This document shows, in pieces, positions 11,796 to 57,920 of a stretch of 64,000 nucleotides of DNA. The position numbers and the translations under genes are program-made. This DNA comes from a virus. Location of the stretch: IMG/VR virus record IMGVR_UViG_3300047564_006544, positions 16,005-80,004 of that record. One strand, 5' to 3'. The first letter of the stretch is position 1. Each line of letters opens with the position of its first letter. The notes under the pieces were generated by a model that searched no databases, was not told the DNA's origin, and worked only from the letters and a program-made list of their open reading frames with translations.

Positions 11796-12830
11796 TTAAA
11801 TAATACTTTTTAATATATTTGAAAAAATAGCAGAAGATTCTTTTAGCGCATCCCTAATGCCCTCATCTTCTGTTCTTGATGATGGTATTAAGATTTCAGA
11901 TGAATTTGTATCTATTTTTAGGTTATTTTTTCCACTTAGTTTTATATGAAAAATTTTCTTTATTAACTCTTCATATTTTTCCAATAATACCAGATTATCT
12001 TTTATTTCATCCAAAGATACAAGTGTTATAAACTTATAATATTCATCATCCAACAGAACTGCTCTTGGTGCATTCAAAAATAATTTTGACAGATTAAATC
12101 CATCTTCATCAAATATACTCATATAATATGGCCTTAGAGTTTCTCTTCCAGAGTGCTTTGATGGCAAGAAAAATCCAAATAGCTTTCTATTTCTAAATGA
12201 TTTTTGTTTTATTTCAAAAAAACCACTTTGGTGGTCGGCTGAAATATTATCTAGCTTTTTTATTTCAGATATTATTTCTCTTGAAGATTCGCTTAAAAAT
12301 GCAAAACTTTTAATATTTTCAATAACATAATTATAAAAGATAAAAATATCATCTTCGTATTTTTTGCTTATTTCAATAAGAAGGTCGCCTTCATTTATAT
12401 TTAAGCCTAGACCATTTATTTTTCTAACACTTTCATTTAAATATAAATGAATGCACAAAAGAATTGTCAGAACCCTTGCTCTTTCTCTTGCCTGCTTTAT
12501 CTTTAGTCCATTCATTCCCTTGTCTATTTCTAATATTTTTTCTTTAACTTTATCTTGAAATAAACTTAAGACGTTATTTTTTATTTTTTTATCATCTGGA
12601 TAAAGATCGTGAAAGGCAGTTCTTGAATCTCTAAATATTTTTATAGCGGACAAAAGCTCTGAGAGACTTCCTGCAATATTTTCAAAAGGAATCTGTAGAA
12701 ATTCCTCCTCTATTGCAAGAAGCCTCCTTGTTGATGCATCACCCTTGTGAAGCATTTTTTTTAAATATTCAATTTTAAATTGAGATATTTCTCTTTCTGT
12801 ATTTAAGTATTTTAAATAATCTTGTTCCAT
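11796..12830 (-). CDS. Hypothetical helical protein, 344 aa
   Basis: Not recognised. It is Lys/Glu/Ile/Leu-rich and mostly helical, with segments that look like coiled coils (residues 10-35 and 90-120), and it has no signal peptide. Its ATG overlaps the stop of the sigma-factor gene by one base (TAATG), so translation is probably coupled. It lies between the sigma factor and the giant gene, which suggests a shared function or expression time. Confidence 0.85.
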   Translation of the reverse strand: MEQDYLKYLNTEREISQFKIEYLKKMLHKGDASTRRLLAIEEEFLQIPFENIAGSLSELLSAIKIFRDSRTAFHDLYPDDKKIKNNVLSLFQDKVKEKILEIDKGMNGLKIKQARERARVLTILLCIHLYLNESVRKINGLGLNINEGDLLIEISKKYEDDIFIFYNYVIENIKSFAFLSESSREIISEIKKLDNISADHQSGFFEIKQKSFRNRKLFGFFLPSKHSGRETLRPYYMSIFDEDGFNLSKLFLNAPRAVLLDDEYYKFITLVSLDEIKDNLVLLEKYEELIKKIFHIKLSGKNNLKIDTNSSEILIPSSRTEDEGIRDALKESSAIFSNILKSII

Positions 12831-13609
12831 TACTTCTGAAGCATATCACGAATCTTTTTATTCCTAGAAAGATTCTTTAATCTTAGATTTGCAGCCCAAG
12901 GAGAAAGTCCAACCTCCTCTGCTGCGTCCTTAATGCTATAGTCTTCAAGTGAAATTAGTCTCAAGATTTGAGATGTTTTATCATCAAGACCGTCACAAAT
13001 AGATGCTATTGATGCCTCAGCCTCTAGTGCATCTGATTCGGCTCTCATATTTCCGAATATTGCATCTTCATTTCCGACTGAATCAATAAACAATACCTCT
13101 TCATCAAGGTTTGCGCTCATTCTGGTTCCAATTTCAGAAAAAAGAACTTCTTTTTTTGCTGTTCTAATTTCTTTTCTATATACCTTATCACATGATGAGC
13201 ATTCGCGAGAAATCTCTGCACCATCTTTAATTTCTGATTTAAATGCCGTTGAGCCACACTCACAGGTCGATGGTAGTGATGCATCCTCAGAAACAGAAAA
13301 TGCATTGTTTGAAAGTTTATTTTTGCTACGAATTTTTGAAATTATCTTGTTGTGAAGATGAATGTGAAGAAATGTGCTAAGCTTCACATTCTTTGTAGAG
13401 TCATAAGATCTAACACCCTCAATTGCAATTATTGCCAACTCCTGCTTTACATCTTCTGGCGCATAGTTTGGAATAAATAGAGAGTTTGACATCTTAAATA
13501 GGAGTGGATCGATTTTCTTTAGAACTCTGTCTAGTCCCTCTCCTGTATTTGTATTTACATAAAATTCTTCATTGTAAAGCCTTACATTGCCTTCGAAATG
13601 AGTGCTCAT
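12830..13609 (-). CDS. Sigma-70-family factor with zinc-ribbon insert
   Basis: A divergent sigma factor, 259 aa, probably redirecting host RNA polymerase to phage promoters in the manner of T4 gp55. Region 2-like helices lie in the first 95 residues (EDVKQELAIIAIEGVRSYD, then STFLHIHLHNKIISKI). A region 4-like helix-turn-helix lies near the C-terminus (SIKDAAEEVGLSPWAANLRLKNL). Between them is an insert with CxC and CxxC pairs (C116, C118, C137, C140), which looks like a zinc ribbon. GGAG sits upstream of the ATG. The gene is the first of a unit that continues with the 344-aa and 2457-aa genes. The sigma assignment is good; which promoter class it reads is unknown. Confidence 0.8.
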   Translation of the reverse strand: MSTHFEGNVRLYNEEFYVNTNTGEGLDRVLKKIDPLLFKMSNSLFIPNYAPEDVKQELAIIAIEGVRSYDSTKNVKLSTFLHIHLHNKIISKIRSKNKLSNNAFSVSEDASLPSTCECGSTAFKSEIKDGAEISRECSSCDKVYRKEIRTAKKEVLFSEIGTRMSANLDEEVLFIDSVGNEDAIFGNMRAESDALEAEASIASICDGLDDKTSQILRLISLEDYSIKDAAEEVGLSPWAANLRLKNLSRNKKIRDMLQK

Positions 13610-17409: not shown

Positions 17410-18573
17410 TTACACCATAATCTTTTTTGCTTCTTCTAGAAGCTTGTTTAAGAAATCGTCGTTAAGACCTTGGGTTTTTGCAAAAGCCTGAAATACCTCA
17501 TAGTCTGTTTTGTGAGAAAGAATTTCTTTATCTTTCTCAAGCTTTACCTGCTCAACGTCCCATATTATTTTTGAAACATGAAATGCTCCAGCAGAATAAA
17601 GAGTTTTCTCTATCTCACCCCTTGAAAATAATGCTTGGGTTCCATCTTTTATTTTAATTTTTGCTCTGCAAATTTTATCATCAAGTGAGAACTTTTTAAT
17701 CTGCTCACTATAATCTTGAAGATAAGTAAAAGCTGTAGATCCAGAAAGATCAAATGATAAGTCTAATAGTTCTCTGGTTGGAATCTTGACCTGTTCAAAG
17801 TCAGATTTTTCTGAATCAAAAACTAAAAAGAACTTTTCAACATCTGCATCACCAAAATTTGTCTTTTCAAGAGATCCAACATAATAAGCTTTTGGACCTG
17901 ACTTTCTAATTCTTCTAAACTCATGATGATGACCCATTACCACACCACTTAGATTCTTTAGAGAATCTGGTGATACAAGAACTTCGTGTCCACCATAGTC
18001 AAAATAATTTCCTTCAAAGAAGAAATTGTGACCAACCGCTATTGATGGGATATCATCTGGTATTCTCTCTGCCATTTCTTTTAACTGCAAGTTAAAAAGA
18101 TCTGTGCATTCTTTTGCTCCGGTACCGGCATACATTCTTTTGTCACGGTATGGAATAAGAAGCATGGCTTGAGATTCGCCATTTTTATTTGAATAGATTA
18201 TTGACTCTGGCTTAAGAAGAATTCTAACATTCTTGTAGGAGTTTGCCTGCATTGTTGCTAATGCGCTGGTATAGCTATCTCCAGTCTTTCTGTAGTCATG
18301 ATTTCCCATTATGACTACAGTAAAGATATTTGCATCAGAAAGTCTTTTTATTGCACGATCTGCAATCTGAATATGCTCAGTGGTTGGATTTCTTACTTCA
18401 AAAAGATCTCCAGTCTGAATAAATACTTCAACATTATTTGAAATGCAGTAGTCAATTATAAAGTTTAAGGAACGCTCGTAATCATCAACTCTGGTGTTTC
18501 CACCAGATCCGTTGGGGCGTCCAAGCGACATGATATTACCAATGTGGGTGTCACCGCAAATAACAGTTTTCAT
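17410..18573 (-). CDS. SbcD/Mre11-like nuclease (T4 gp47-like)
   Basis: Calcineurin-type metallophosphoesterase, the nuclease partner of the SbcC-like protein. 387 aa. Metal-binding motifs are in the normal order: GDTH (residues 8-11), GDLFE, GNHD near 92, VGHNF, then GHHHEF near 212. All expected ligands are present. Its ATG overlaps the stop of the GIY-YIG gene (ATGA). The first five codons (MKTVI) are duplicated 0.8 kb upstream at 19386-19409, which indicates that the homing gene landed at this position. Confidence 0.95.
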   Translation of the reverse strand: MKTVICGDTHIGNIMSLGRPNGSGGNTRVDDYERSLNFIIDYCISNNVEVFIQTGDLFEVRNPTTEHIQIADRAIKRLSDANIFTVVIMGNHDYRKTGDSYTSALATMQANSYKNVRILLKPESIIYSNKNGESQAMLLIPYRDKRMYAGTGAKECTDLFNLQLKEMAERIPDDIPSIAVGHNFFFEGNYFDYGGHEVLVSPDSLKNLSGVVMGHHHEFRRIRKSGPKAYYVGSLEKTNFGDADVEKFFLVFDSEKSDFEQVKIPTRELLDLSFDLSGSTAFTYLQDYSEQIKKFSLDDKICRAKIKIKDGTQALFSRGEIEKTLYSAGAFHVSKIIWDVEQVKLEKDKEILSHKTDYEVFQAFAKTQGLNDDFLNKLLEEAKKIMV

Positions 18574-19322
18574 TTTTCCTCGTTATTTATTCTATATATT
18601 TTCCAACAACCGTTGATTAATTTTTCTGTATATTTTTCGTGATCTTTATTTAGTCTGCGCTGAATTGCAGAGCGAGAAACTCCAAACATCTTTGCTATAT
18701 CATTATAGGATGATCCTGTCTTTATTTCTCCAGTATTAACATTTTTTGCTTCAATCTCGGAAATATAACCTGGATTATCGCTTCCCCACCTTGAATCGCT
18801 AATTTTCTTTTTAGTCTCTGCAGAGCGTTTCTTACCAAAGTTTGGATTTTTTTCTCCACTATTAATTTCGCTAAGGTGTCTCTTCTGCTCTTCGGTAAGG
18901 CTCTTACCCTTATTATGTGGAGTTTTGCCACTCATCTTTTGTATTGTCTCTTTGGAATGTTTTCTTCCGGCCATAGGCGAGTTTGACATAACTGCCATAT
19001 TATAATGGTAATCGTAGTGATTTTTGATCTTAAAAATATCATCTAAATACTTTTGTTCTACAGAAAGAAGATCAGTAGTAGCAAGTGAATTGCTGCATAT
19101 CTCTAAAATTTTAAATTCAAAAGAATCATTTCCATATTTGTTATATGCATTTTGCAGAAAAATATTTGCATGCCTCTTAGCCGTAAGATTTTTAAAATGA
19201 TCTCGCAACCTATTTTCAAAGTTAGAGGTGGATCCAATATACATCTTCCCATCCTTAAGGTTTAAAATGCAGTATATTCCACATTTATTAAGATCATCCT
19301 TATTTCCTTTGAATTTTATCAT
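18570..19322 (-). CDS. GIY-YIG homing endonuclease
   Basis: Free-standing homing endonuclease, about 250 aa. The GIY-YIG domain opens the protein (CGIYCILNLKDGKMYIGST, then the FENRLRDH helix). It is followed by NUMOD-type DNA-binding repeats (SPMAGRKHSKETIQKMSG; EKNPNFGKKRSAETKKKIS) and ends with an IENR-like helix-turn-helix (SSYNDIAKMFGVSRSAIQRRL). I chose the ATG at 19322 over the GTG at 19328 because GAGG lies 5 bases upstream of it. That ribosome binding site is part of the hairpin at 19329-19352. The gene separates the primase domain from sbcD. Confidence 0.9.
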   Translation of the reverse strand: MIKFKGNKDDLNKCGIYCILNLKDGKMYIGSTSNFENRLRDHFKNLTAKRHANIFLQNAYNKYGNDSFEFKILEICSNSLATTDLLSVEQKYLDDIFKIKNHYDYHYNMAVMSNSPMAGRKHSKETIQKMSGKTPHNKGKSLTEEQKRHLSEINSGEKNPNFGKKRSAETKKKISDSRWGSDNPGYISEIEAKNVNTGEIKTGSSYNDIAKMFGVSRSAIQRRLNKDHEKYTEKLINGCWKIYRINNEEK

Positions 19323-19328
19323 AAGCAC

Positions 19329-19366
19329 CTCACTTTATTATACCAAAGTGAGTGTCACTAAAGCAA
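19329..19366 (-). promoter_or_regulatory. Hairpin masking a ribosome binding site, promoter in its loop
   Basis: The stem CTCACTTT (19345-19352) pairs with AAAGTGAG (19329-19336). The right arm contains most of the GAGG used by the GIY-YIG gene. The 8-base loop carries TATAAT preceded by TGG, a consensus extended -10 box (19337-19342), and TTGCTT lies 18 bp upstream (19361-19366). A transcript reading through from the primase gene would fold and hide the site. A transcript starting from the loop promoter would lack the left arm. Confidence 0.7.
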
Positions 19367-25376: not shown

Positions 25377-25580
25377 CTAGATTATATCTACGTCCGAAAA
25401 ACTATTCGCATGAGAACTTGACTTTTTTAAATCTTCGGCAAGTTTTTCAATATTTGATTTATAAAACTCAACAATCCTCTTGAATTCTTCATCTTCCATT
25501 ACTAAGATGTCAATTCCATAGTTTTGGTATAGTTTTTTTATTCTCTCTAATATTTTTTCTTCACTAATTTTTTTCTTCAT
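25377..25580 (-). CDS. Hypothetical small protein, 67 aa
   Basis: Not recognised; charged and helical. Its start lies inside the end of the HNH gene (17-bp overlap), so expression probably depends on coupling. The ribosome binding site is weak. Confidence 0.55.
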   Translation of the reverse strand: MKKKISEEKILERIKKLYQNYGIDILVMEDEEFKRIVEFYKSNIEKLAEDLKKSSSHANSFSDVDII

Positions 25581-32348: not shown

Positions 32349-32376
32349 AATATAGGCACCGAACCGCAGAGGTCAA
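32349..32376 (-). promoter_or_regulatory. Class A promoter (sigma70-like)
   Basis: TTGACC (32371-32376), 16 bp, TATATT (32349-32354), with CGGTG just before the -10 box. A 5-bp stem (32317-32321 with 32337-32341) forms right after the expected start site. Confidence 0.75.
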
Positions 32377-40916: not shown

Positions 40917-42536
40917 TTATTCTTGGATTAGGTCGGAAAGATCCTGGTAAACACAAACTTCTGTTGTCAGGAGAGTACCTGCAGCTGATACGGCATTTTC
41001 TACGCCCTTTCTAACTACCTTTACAGGATCAATGATGCCTCTTTCCATCATATCTTCTACAAACTCTCCTCTTAGAGCGTCAAATCCAACAAACCCTCCG
41101 GTTGAAATTATCTTTTCTTGTGGGCCATGATAATCAAATCCTGCATTACGCATAATCTGAATAAATGGCTCCCTAAGAGCAGTACGAAGAATATTTAGAC
41201 CCGCAACTTCTTCTGGAAGAAGCTTTCCTGCTGGCTGAGCATTGATATAATCTCCAACAACTCTTGATGCCTGAAGAAGAGCTGAGCCTCCACCTGGAAC
41301 AATTCCCATTTCAATTGCTGCACGAACTGCATTTAGAGAGTCTTCAACTCGATCCTTTCGCTCTCTCATTTCTCCTTCGGTAGAACCACCAACACGGAAT
41401 ACTGCTGCTCCACCAGCCAGCTTTGAAAGTCTGTCTTTTAGAGACGCCTTTTGGTGATCAAAGATTGTTGAATCTCCCATTTGAGACTTAATCATTCTAA
41501 CTCTCATATCAACAGATTCTTTTCCACCAGCACCATCCACAATTAGAGTTGTATTTCTTGTGCAGAGGATTCTTCTTGCTCTACCAAGATCCTCTAACTC
41601 TGCATCGCGTAGTGCTCTTCCGTTAGAATTGTCAAATACTTTTCCGCCAACAACTGCTGCAATATCTTCTAGCATATCGCGTCTAACGTCACCAAATCCT
41701 GGTGCTTTTATTGCACAACAAAGAAGATTTGCTTTCTGTCTATTTAGAACGAGAGTTGCAAGAGCTTCACCTTCAACATCACGAGCAATAATAAATAGTG
41801 GCTTACCTGCTCCATGTGCCTTCTGGATAATCTCTAGAAACTCTGATGATGATGAAATTTTATCATCATAAAGTACAATATAAGCTCCCTCAAATTCGCA
41901 AGATAGCTTTTCAACATTTGTAACAAATGCTGGAGATAGCCAGCCCTTTGCAACCTGAAGTCCCTCTGTATAAGATACTTGAGTTTGACCTCCTGTAGAT
42001 TCTTCTAGGGAAATTACACCATCCTCACCAACATTAGATACAACCTCACCAATCATTGAACCCAATTCTGAGTCATTGTTTGTTGAGATTGTGGCAACAT
42101 GCTTTAGTGTTTCTTCCGAATCAATACTGCGAGATAGCGATGATAGGAATGTTGTAACCTGAGAAAGACCAATATCTAAGCCTCTTTTTAGAAGGACTGG
42201 ATTGTGTCCTGCTGCAACCATCTTAAGACCATCATTAAAAATTGCCTGAGATAGAACGGTTGCAGTGGTTGTTCCGTCACCAGCCATAGAATTTGTTGCA
42301 GAAGCAGCAGTCTTAATAAGTTGCGCTCCAATATTTTGGAGAGGATCTTTTAGCTCAATTGCTCTTGCGACGGATACTCCATCTTTTGTAATTACTGGAG
42401 GACCATAGCCTCTCTCTAATGCTGCATGGCGACCTCTTGGACCAAGAGTGCATTTTACTGCATCTGCCACAATATTTACGCCTTTCTGAATTTCTGCTCT
42501 TGCCTCAGAACCAAACTTAACTTCTTTTGCTGACAT
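40917..42536 (-). CDS. groEL: GroEL chaperonin (60-kDa)
   Basis: ATP-dependent folding chamber subunit, 539 aa, full length. Seen: [21 protein letters not shown], the ATP loop [13 protein letters not shown], the catalytic [11 protein letters not shown], the apical domain with [17 protein letters not shown], and [11 protein letters not shown]. The C-terminus ends in SDLIQE and lacks the flexible GGM tail of bacterial GroEL. No groES was found in the window; the phage may use the host co-chaperonin or its own elsewhere. It probably folds virion proteins, as proposed for other phage GroELs. It follows the methyltransferase by 9 bp. Confidence 0.97.
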
Positions 42537-45503: not shown

Positions 45504-45911
45504 CTAAGAGATTTTTTCATCAATAATAAAAAATTCTTTATCTGCCCAAGAAAATTTAACCCTATTTACCAATAGATTTGCCATATCTTTTACAAAAGAA
45601 AGATTAAGCTTTAAATCTTTTATCTCGCTATCCAGATCTTCAATCTTTTTTAGAAAATCTAAAGGGCTACTTTCTGCAACAATAGAAAAATAATTTACAT
45701 AGTCTTCCATTGTTGCGATTGTTACATCTCCCTTTGCCTTCTTTATTGGCTTACAGATTATAAGATCTTTTCCTGATGGAAGCTCGTTACGCTCCTCCCA
45801 TCCAACGAGAATCTTTCCGTCTTTTTCTGGCGGGAGCTGACGGTAGCCAAGAATTTTATCTACCTTGTAGGTTTTTAGAATCTTAGGTAATGTTGCCAAC
45901 TTTTCCTCCAA
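45504..45911 (-). CDS. Hypothetical protein, 135 aa
   Basis: Unknown. The N-terminal two-thirds are mixed alpha/beta, the C-terminal third is a helix-rich Lys/Asp segment (KKIEDLDSEIKDLKLNL). It starts inside the end of the preceding gene (29-bp overlap) with TTGGAGGAAAAG close to the ATG. It converges on the plus gene ending at 45487. Confidence 0.7.
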   Translation of the reverse strand: MEEKLATLPKILKTYKVDKILGYRQLPPEKDGKILVGWEERNELPSGKDLIICKPIKKAKGDVTIATMEDYVNYFSIVAESSPLDFLKKIEDLDSEIKDLKLNLSFVKDMANLLVNRVKFSWADKEFFIIDEKIS

Positions 45912-46551
45912 TCTTCTTTATGGTAGCTGCATTACCGTGAACCTCAAACATTACAGTCTTTTCTGCCGTCTTATTATCAACGCGACAAAGAGTGCAGTCG
46001 TTACAGGTAATGTCCTTCTTTCCTTCTACGCCATGACGAGCGGGGCACATAAATGCCTTCTCACCATTTGGCAAGGAAAGTGACTTCTGTGTTCCCTTTG
46101 GTACGATTAGTGTTGCAGACCAGCCCATAGAGCGTGCCTCCATCACTTCATCAAGGTTTGCACAGGAAGCCCTAAAATAGCCCTTTAGAGGCTGGGCTTC
46201 ATCTGCTCGCCAATTATGAGTGTAGCCAATATTGATAAGCCCTTCGCTCTCAACGAGCTTACACTCATTAAGTGTTTCTTTTACATCGCCAACAATATCT
46301 CCGGCAATTCTATGCCGAACAATTCTTGCCGTATGTAGTCGCTCTCCTAGAGCATCCGTGATAGACTTAAGCTTAATTGTTCCCTTGTCAATCTTTGATG
46401 AAAGAACGCCAAGGTAAAACAATCCCCAAGCATAACACCCGCCTTCTTTTAGTGAGCAGGAGTCTGGGCAGCTTTCCTTTGTAGAATAGGATGCAACAAC
46501 CTTTCCTGTCTTTTTGTCATTAGAAGAAGAAACCCAATGAACCTTTCGCAT
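45883..46551 (-). CDS. Cysteine-rich conserved phage protein, 222 aa
   Basis: Has SCPDSCSLKEGGCYAW near the N-terminus and CPARHGVEGKKDITCNDCTLC near residue 170, two cysteine clusters that could hold a metal or iron-sulfur centre. I believe it belongs to a phage family resembling GP88/DUF7227, but cannot confirm. Biochemistry unknown. No strong ribosome binding site at the start. Confidence 0.75.
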   Translation of the reverse strand: MRKVHWVSSSNDKKTGKVVASYSTKESCPDSCSLKEGGCYAWGLFYLGVLSSKIDKGTIKLKSITDALGERLHTARIVRHRIAGDIVGDVKETLNECKLVESEGLINIGYTHNWRADEAQPLKGYFRASCANLDEVMEARSMGWSATLIVPKGTQKSLSLPNGEKAFMCPARHGVEGKKDITCNDCTLCRVDNKTAEKTVMFEVHGNAATIKKIGGKVGNIT

Positions 46552-46591
46552 TTGTCTACCACGGAAAATGAAAAAGAATTACTTTTTCTAG

Positions 46592-47173
46592 TTAAATGTT
46601 TTTTGAGTTTTCTAAATAAAATATTGCAGACTTTAATATCTCTACGTTTTCTTTTAAGAGACCTATGCCTGTATTACATTGGCTGCAAAGAAGTCCTCTT
46701 ATTTTTAGGGTATTGTGATCGTGATCTACATGAAGAGAATGGCCTAAATTATCCTGAGATATTCCACATATTTTGCAGCACCATCCCTGAGAATCTCCAA
46801 TCTCTTTGAATTTCTCTAGGGTCAAATCTATACCAAGCTTTTTCCAAGTATGAGGCCTAAATTTTCCCTTAGATCTCATTTCCCTTCCATACCTTATTTT
46901 ATGCTGCCTTCTTCTTTCTGCCTCTTCTGGCGGCAAAGATTTTAAATATTCTTTTCTTTTTTCTAAGATTTTTTCTTTTCTTCTTAAATATCTTTTTTTG
47001 CTTTGCTCCGCAAGCTTTTCTCTATTCTCTTCATAATATTTTTTAAGATATTCTTTTCTTTTTTCTACGTATTTTGGCGCATTTTTCTTATCACGTTCTT
47101 TTTTTGCTTCTTTATTTTTTTGATAATATTCTCTGCAATATTGTTTTCTTTTTTCTTTCTTTTCTTCATCTAG
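46592..47173 (-). CDS. Endonuclease VII-type nuclease, 193 aa
   Basis: The C-terminal domain has CCKICGISQDN, LHVDHDHNTLKIRGLLCSQCN and TGIGLLKEN, the recombination endonuclease VII (HNH/His-Me) motif with zinc-binding cysteines. A very basic helical N-terminal half (KRKEYLKKYYEENREKLAEQ repeats) should bind DNA. It could resolve branched DNA like T4 gp49 or be a homing-type relative. ATG 47173 was chosen because GGAGG lies 7 bases upstream; that site is inside the hairpin at 47184-47210. Confidence 0.88.
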   Translation of the reverse strand, partial: LDEEKKEKRKQYCREYYQKNKEAKKERDKKNAPKYVEKRKEYLKKYYEENREKLAEQSKKRYLRRKEKILEKRKEYLKSLPPEEAERRRQHKIRYGREMRSKGKFRPHTWKKLGIDLTLEKFKEIGDSQGWCCKICGISQDNLGHSLHVDHDHNTLKIRGLLCSQCNTGIGLLKENVEILKSAIFYLENSKNI

Positions 47174-47183
47174 CATAGATGAA

Positions 47184-47210
47184 CCTCCAGAATAATTTAT
47201 ACTCTGGAGG
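47184..47210 (-). promoter_or_regulatory. Hairpin masking a ribosome binding site, TATAAATT in its loop
   Basis: CCTCCAGA pairs with TCTGGAGG (47184-47191 with 47203-47210); the right arm contains the GGAGG of the endonuclease VII gene. The 11-base loop contains TATAAATT (47194-47201), close to the T4 late-promoter box TATAAATA. Transcripts from upstream would mask the site; transcripts initiated in the loop would not carry the left arm. Confidence 0.7.
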
Positions 47211-47224
47211 CTCATATCTTTTAA

Positions 47225-47479
47225 TTAACTATCAAGGTGCTTTTGAAGAAAGGCGAGAAGTGACTTTGCCTCTCTTACAGTCATCTTGATTACAGACTCG
47301 CTACGAGAATCTGGAACAGTAATAGTAAGTCGATTTGAAAGCTTCTTCTTTCCTACGGAATCGCGTGAAAGTCGAACTCTAAATCCTGAAAAATCTCGAC
47401 TTACTACCTTCTCTCGATCTGCAAGTGCTGGAACTTTACTGCGTGAATTTGACTGCTGAGTAGTGGTATCGGTATTCAT
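47225..47479 (-). CDS. Hypothetical protein, 84 aa
   Basis: Unknown; a Ser/Thr-rich N-terminus, then a compact beta-rich part (RLTITVPDSRSESVIKMTV) and a helix at the end. Good GGAG site at the start. It follows the 57-aa gene closely. Confidence 0.7.
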   Translation of the reverse strand: MNTDTTTQQSNSRSKVPALADREKVVSRDFSGFRVRLSRDSVGKKKLSNRLTITVPDSRSESVIKMTVREAKSLLAFLQKHLDS

Positions 47480-57526: not shown

Positions 57527-57560
57527 TTGATGAAGTAAAATTTTTTATATTAAGAAGATA

Positions 57561-57920
57561 TTAATCTGCTCGACCTTTGTTATTAAAGTTGCCCCCATAC
57601 TCAGCTACCATTCTTCCCCCAAAAGAATCGGTATGCATGATGTTTGTCGAACCCAAATGGCAAATCTTACCCTTGTTAAATCCGGTAGAGTTCTTGTAAG
57701 CCTTCATATAAGCATTGGCATTAGTCTTATTATCAAATCGCATTACAGTGATCATGGTTGTTTTTCCATCCCCTGCCCCAACCCCAATTGATACGGGTGC
57801 TCTTTCTGTCTTAAGAGAAACAACACAGTCAGAACACTCGTTGATCTTTCCGCCTACCATAATCTTCTCAGCGGACTTTGTATCAAACTCTTCGCCACAA
57901 TGAACGCAGGACTTAATCAT
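57561..57920 (-). CDS. Zinc-ribbon protein, 119 aa
   Basis: Starts MIKSCVHCGEEF and has NECSDC about 28 residues later, a four-cysteine zinc ribbon. The rest is a compact basic domain (TTMITVMRFDNKTNANAYMKAYK). ATG 57920 chosen over a GTG six bases before because GAGG fits it. Possible nucleic-acid binder; unknown. Confidence 0.75.
   Translation of the reverse strand: MIKSCVHCGEEFDTKSAEKIMVGGKINECSDCVVSLKTERAPVSIGVGAGDGKTTMITVMRFDNKTNANAYMKAYKNSTGFNKGKICHLGSTNIMHTDSFGGRMVAEYGGNFNNKGRAD

Follow-up and report, generated by a model that had tools for sequence, protein, structure and literature searches.

Two questions arise at the endonuclease VII gene of this virus: whether its ribosome-binding site is hidden in a hairpin, as it is in T4 gene 49, and whether such an arrangement would have descended with the nuclease or been acquired independently of it. 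The window analyzed here is a stretch of 64,000 nucleotides corresponding to bases 16005–80004 of the 80,004-base virus record IMGVR_UViG_3300047564_006544, and a search of the phage collection returned no DNA match to near-identical records. On the minus strand, the conserved gene up84 is followed in turn by the hairpin, the endonuclease VII gene, and the DUF7227 gene (Table 1). Close relatives of the flanking genes are found in records G002 and G003 (L116 and L117; about 85% identical) and in record G004 (L118; about 75%). The window also encodes a GroEL (40917–42536), which is about 45% identical to the GroEL proteins of other phages.

Table 1. Features of the endonuclease VII locus and of the second endonuclease cassette in the window.
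Feature	Position	Strand	Details
Endonuclease VII-domain gene	46592..47176	-	194 aa, ATG 47176; catalytic domain C-terminal
up84, conserved upstream gene	47225..47479	-	Last 16 codons differ from the G002/G004 version
DUF7227 gene, conserved, downstream	45883..46551	-	PF23872 5.1e-24; 99% identical in L116/L117
16-bp hairpin burying the ribosome-binding site, AUGAGCCUCCAGAGUA-UAAAU-UAUUCUGGAGGUUCAU	47179..47215	-	Folding, shuffles, opening cost
Shine-Dalgarno GGAGG in 3' arm of hairpin	47184..47188	-	Sequence reading; 7 nt before ATG 47176
TATAAATT, candidate -10 or T4-late-like box	47194..47201	-	Sequence reading
Cassette without counterpart in G002/G003	46570..47268	-	blastn of records; empty site in L116/L117; contains up84 tail, hairpin, endonuclease VII gene, and a 3' A/T-rich hairpin
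GIY-YIG + NUMOD3 homing-type endonuclease gene, second cassette	18570..19322	-	ATG 19322; PF01541 1.7e-12, PF07460 1.9e-18
Weaker hairpin CTCACTTT/AAAGTGAG on GIY-YIG ribosome site	19329..19352	-	Folding; TGGTATAAT (19345-19337) at loop

The first-pass annotation had described an 8-bp stem that buries a GGAGG and carries TATAAATT in its loop. The sequence CCTCCAGA-GTATAAATTAT-TCTGGAGG is located exactly at 47210–47184 on the minus strand, but it forms only the core of a stem of 16 pairs, 2 of which are G-U, closed by a 5-nt loop; because the stem is longer than 8 bp, TATAAATT, although present, straddles its tip rather than lying inside the loop. The burial of the GGAGG itself is stronger than had been claimed: the hairpin has a folding energy of −24.8 kcal/mol (z −7.4), which was equaled by 0 of 200 dinucleotide shuffles, and its pairing extends to 3 nt upstream of the AUG. 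Of the minus-strand hairpins detected across the 80-kb record it ranks third in stability, and no other of the most stable hairpins has a Shine-Dalgarno (SD) sequence in its 3' arm followed directly by a start codon. No known element was found in it by Rfam, which returned a sub-threshold miRNA match only.

Closure of the start was expressed as the cost, on read-through RNA, of opening positions −18 to +3, with 214 genes from this record and two sister records serving as the reference. Opening the endonuclease VII start costs 26.9 kcal/mol, a value attained by 0 of the 214 group genes (median 5.9, maximum 21.2 kcal/mol) and exceeding those of the T4 genes 49 and e (17.0 and 17.6 kcal/mol, respectively); the T4 control starts, pin and ipIII, cost 4.1 and 2.5 kcal/mol. 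When the part upstream was shuffled and the SD and start were kept, 0 of 300 sequences reached this cost, and in silico removal of the 5' arm lowered it from 27 to 10, with most of the residue contributed by a small hairpin (UUCAUCU/AGAUGAA) that has the AUG near its loop. Since a well-paired SD is seen in about 5% of genes and the CCTCCAGA/TCTGGAGG palindrome precedes many unrelated phage genes, for which reason we rejected this stem as a family marker, a palindrome could in principle have come to overlie an SD by chance; the z-score, the two sets of shuffles, and the rank of this start as the highest of 215 make such a coincidence exceedingly improbable.

The nuclease itself matches Pfam PF02945 (4.8e-19, residues 114–190) and the PHROG endonuclease VII, and shares 38% identity over 53 aa with the core of T4 gp49, including the VDHDH and C-N-G motifs. 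Its endonuclease VII domain stops 4 residues short of the C-terminus, and the dimerization domain PF09124, detected in T4 gp49 (1.5e-33), was not found in the window's protein. Although described as the homologous nuclease, it therefore shares with gp49 a catalytic domain and, because PF09124 is missing, does not qualify as its orthologue. No close homologue that might reveal compensating base changes in the stem was found in IMG/VR or in the species genomes, where the best match was about 34% identical. In a 332-kb relative, G005 (L263), an endonuclease VII domain forms an in-frame fusion with a class II aldolase-like protein.

A second in-frame ATG, at 47215 within the 5' arm, lies 9 nt past the up84 stop codon, and ribosomes finishing up84 might re-initiate there and cross the hairpin, yielding a form of 207 aa; T4 gene 49 is likewise said to make two nested proteins (Barth et al. 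1988, cited in PMC2988022). Against such coupling, this ATG has a weak SD, compared with the GGAGG that serves 47176; a ribosome terminating on up84 would probably touch only the base of the stem; and the N-terminal extension would consist of the palindrome itself. We consider this explanation improbable.

Comparison with the sister phages revealed where the nuclease gene came in. In G002 and G003, up84 and the DUF7227 gene are joined with no endonuclease between them, the gap holding a different hairpin, GCCGGAGAGG/CCTCTCCGGC-ATTTT, and the homology of G002 to this record (blastn of records) ends at 47268. G004 keeps the GCCGGAGAGG/CCTCTCCGGC-ATTTT hairpin and has, in addition, another endonuclease VII gene, whose product is about 40% identical to that of the window and which sits across the shared CATTTTCCGTGG, on the opposite side from the insertion in the window. 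Because the insertion points differ between the window and G004, these genes look like two separate insertions into a single up84-DUF7227 gap. The G004 gene is also preceded by a hairpin that covers its ribosome-binding site (−18.8 kcal/mol, z −4.1, opening cost 15.2), of unrelated sequence. The final 16 codons of up84 in the window are unlike those common to G002 and G004, as expected if the cassette had brought in a foreign junction through gene conversion. The endonuclease VII gene is a presence/absence polymorphism at a conserved site among close relatives, and seems to have jumped into the virus recently.

The same comparison bears on the main rival explanation, in which the hairpin belongs to up84, as a 3' hairpin shared across the group for termination or mRNA protection, with the nuclease borrowing its 3' arm as a ribosome site and silencing arising as a by-product. 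Of the relatives examined, 8 of 8 have a stable hairpin directly behind up84, with energies of −22 to −34 kcal/mol and unrelated sequences, and since relatives without any endonuclease also carry one there, the hairpin in the window may belong to up84. Furthermore, the ancestral GCCGGAGAGG...CCTCTCCGGC-ATTTT hairpin is missing here and its slot is occupied by the endonuclease VII hairpin. Hairpins behind up84 were seen in L116, L118, L121, L123, L124, L125, L128, and L129, often without a T run. However, the stem in the window lacks a subsequent T run whichever way it is read, which makes it a poor intrinsic terminator; a terminator scan made no call, unlike for the ancestral hairpin of G004, and termination of up84 by a GC-rich hairpin plus T run was rejected. 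In the relatives in which the leader was read, the SD of the next gene lies outside the hairpin, whereas here it lies inside, at normal spacing, with pairing that stops 3 nt short of the AUG. Moreover, G004 has both the old terminator and a separate hairpin on the ribosome-binding site of its endonuclease VII gene, and the HNH220 and GIY-YIG cassettes (see below) carry such hairpins to sites that previously had none. The endonuclease VII hairpin could shield up84 RNA at its 3' end, and a dual role is possible, but that it is up84's own and silences the nuclease by accident seems to us rather unlikely.

If the hairpin closes the start on read-through RNA, expression of the nuclease would call for an RNA without its 5' arm, most likely one that begins near the stem tip. 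Read as a -10 element, TATAAATT provides TATAAA, with TTAAAA 17 nt upstream at 47224–47219, and RNA initiated from it would begin around the 3' arm, which makes it a plausible candidate start; the promoter scan called no promoter in the hairpin. The resemblance of TATAAATT to the T4 late box had also been pointed out. As a promoter class of this phage, T4 late promoters proved unsupported: TATAAATA occurs 11 times in the window against 6.3 expected, and the regions upstream of genes show no enrichment for it (2 of 15 sites). The phage carries a sigma-70-family factor gene (window 12830–13609) as well as strong promoters with the pattern TTGACC-N-TAGATTAT. A promoter-like CACTTGACC-N-GTGCCTAGATTATAG recurs in the phage group, with upstream sites near 32376 and 57551.

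The dyad symmetry is centered on TATAAATT, and the palindrome might accordingly be read as a DNA operator overlapping a promoter, through which the nuclease might, for instance, repress its own gene, as with I-TevI and the operator that it binds across its promoter (PMC2988022). Yet the two positions at which the palindrome is imperfect give G-U in the sense RNA, where they pair, and mismatches in DNA. The pairing also coincides with the SD, and we regard an operator as highly improbable.

The first-pass annotation had reported the same design at the GIY-YIG gene of the window. A hairpin exists there, on a cassette for which an empty-site relative is available, but it is statistically weak (z −2.2; 21 of 214 genes and 30 of 300 shuffles equally closed) and the weakest case among the mobile endonucleases of the group. 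The gene is missing from G002, in which its flanks are joined. The cassette (window 18570–19345; L251) is inserted 15 nt into the start of an SbcD-like phosphoesterase gene, which in G002 reads uninterrupted, ...AAAATGAAAACCGTAATTTGCGG...; in the window the cassette comes after ATGAAAACCGTAATT, and the SbcD-like gene, preceded by a ribosome-binding site of its own, restarts downstream of the GIY-YIG gene as AAATGAAAACTGTTATTTGCGG and differs there by synonymous changes. The arrangement resembles the outcome of homing into a target that has become protected. The loop of the GIY-YIG hairpin is entered by TGGTATAAT, which has the consensus of an extended -10.

A third family is represented by HNH220 (about 213–220 aa), present at G003:25696–26358 and G004:31331–31972, the corresponding site being empty here (window 57551–57589). 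The stem formed by its leader, TTTTGGCGGAA...TTTGGAGTTCCGCCAAAATG, extends as far as the AUG, with energies of −28.2 kcal/mol in G003 and −24.5 kcal/mol in G004 and opening costs of 23.1 and 17.3, respectively. The outer 12-bp stem is invariant between the 2 records, and all 4 of the differences fall in the inner part, where the pairing is re-formed despite them, more weakly in G004. Six distinct endonucleases, a small set whose membership was chosen after looking at the data, have more tightly closed starts than the 214 other group genes (p 0.0018; 0.0001–0.02 with other windows for the calculation). Counter-examples without a closed start are HNH222 of G004 and the HNH-like gene at 25564 of the window; the closure of the GIY-YIG gene of G003 is at chance level compared with shuffles, and several endonucleases of the 332-kb relative G005 are without a hairpin that hides the ribosome-binding site. 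That hairpins recur on several mobile endonucleases of the group favors a convergent, cassette-borne origin.

Ribosome-binding sites at two further genes are also paired. That of a trypsin-like protease gene is covered by a moderate hairpin, CTGCTATTA...TAATAGAGG, which is conserved in three phages (window 50977, plus strand; G003:19083; G004:24667), and a small, conserved zinc-finger-like gene (MIKSC.HCGEEF) has a closed site at window 57920 (minus strand) and G004:32398, with differing stem sequences.

The deep conservation that had been offered as one reading of the locus is not supported: the gene is missing from sister records, the stem, whose conservation in relatives had been set beforehand as the test, is replaced in G004 by an unrelated one, and among distant endonuclease VII homologues in IMG/VR 0 of 25 reach an opening cost of 15 kcal/mol, against 4 of 368 neighbors. 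Across IMG/VR, hairpins on the ribosome-binding site were found in 6 of 58 GIY-YIG and endonuclease VII relatives versus 35 of 735, a difference that is not significant (p 0.07). A leader element common to the endonuclease VII family was rejected, since the homologues show no excess of strong hairpins. With none of the 25 homologues reaching 15 kcal/mol and no broader excess, the stem is cassette-specific: the hairpin is neither deeply conserved nor a general property, and belongs to particular cassettes.

Direct observation covers an exceptionally strong hairpin, its placement over the ribosome site of a gene that is polymorphic for presence, and the recurrence of such hairpins on other endonuclease cassettes of the group. 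We propose, with somewhat more confidence than doubt, that the locus is a mobile free-standing endonuclease cassette whose leader acts as a translational lock against read-through mRNA. On mRNA coming from the upstream genes, the 16-bp hairpin would sequester the GGAGG together with the leader to within 3 nt of the AUG, so that in vivo the nuclease would not be made. Its translation would require RNA without the 5' arm, most likely started internally, at or near TATAAATT at the stem tip, or else processed. The purpose of the lock would be to insulate a potentially harmful nuclease from neighboring promoters.

A wider version of this proposal holds that in three families (endonuclease VII, HNH, and GIY-YIG) independently acquired cassettes of this non-T4 phage group each brought along or evolved a hairpin that hides the ribosome-binding site and has a built-in promoter, making them self-insulating, with host-type promoters in place of a T4 late system; we put it forward tentatively and consider it doubtful. 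If true, hairpins with TGNTATAAT between their arms before unrelated phage genes would point to a general phage design. Hairpins that bury a GGAGG, enclose TGNTATAAT between their arms, and immediately precede an ORF were seen in the phage contigs L141, L439, L390/L343, L401, L441, L409, and L420, the ORFs including dCMP-deaminase-like and zinc-motif (possibly HNH) genes. ORF starts behind CCTCC-TGNTATAAT-GGAGG hairpins show a sense-strand bias of 80 versus 22; this bias is not clearly stronger for strong hairpins, and since any promoter-SD-gene order would produce it, we set it aside as proof and treat it as a lead.

The lock proposed for the endonuclease VII cassette is a new example of a known T4-type design, not a new mechanism. 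A comparable effect is provided by fold-back inhibition of the IS10 and IS50 transposases, in which the ribosome site pairs with upstream sequence missing from the element's own transcript; there, too, a mobile element blocks translation of read-through RNA, but the arms derive from terminal repeats, whereas here the hairpin is local. Structures that sequester ribosome-binding sites are known from the T4 genes 49, e, and soc and from I-TevI, I-TevII, I-TevIII, segB, and Aeh1 mobE (PMC3014915, PMC2988022), and for I-TevI, e, and other endonucleases a promoter just upstream yields RNA unable to form the structure (PMC2988022, PMC3014915). The identity of design that had been claimed with T4 gene 49 holds for the leader, which in both cases buries the SD and the sequence leading up to the start codon of a gene with an endonuclease VII domain, within a polycistronic unit, and not for the protein, which is without the gp49 architecture. 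The stem sequence is also different, and the window's gene has no PF09124, a C-terminal catalytic domain, and the character of a presence/absence cassette; furthermore, gene 49 has a late start, whereas the TATAAATT promoter here is a candidate. Gene e shares the box in the hairpin, TATAAATA lying within its 5' strand/loop (PMC3014915), as well as a high opening cost (17.6), but it is a structural/lysis gene native to the phage, with a mapped late promoter. The homing endonucleases of T-even phages (I-TevI/II/III, segB, and Aeh1 mobE) resemble the window's gene in being mobile, in having the ribosome-binding site in a stable hairpin with a promoter-like sequence near its loop, and in being inserted within an existing transcription unit (PMC2988022). 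Unlike them, the gene described here resides in a non-T-even phage, has a candidate promoter without a consensus late box, and encodes an endonuclease VII rather than a nuclease of the GIY-YIG or HNH mob type.

Hidden ribosome sites on mobile endonucleases were previously worked out in T4 and its kin. That an equivalent solution, built from unrelated sequences, appears on several cassettes that have empty-site relatives, in a phage group that is uncultivated and unrelated to T4, argues that a lock against read-through is repeatedly favored when a nuclease gene enters an operon. The empty and filled sites of the sister phages constitute a natural experiment, which makes the idea of the lock directly testable.
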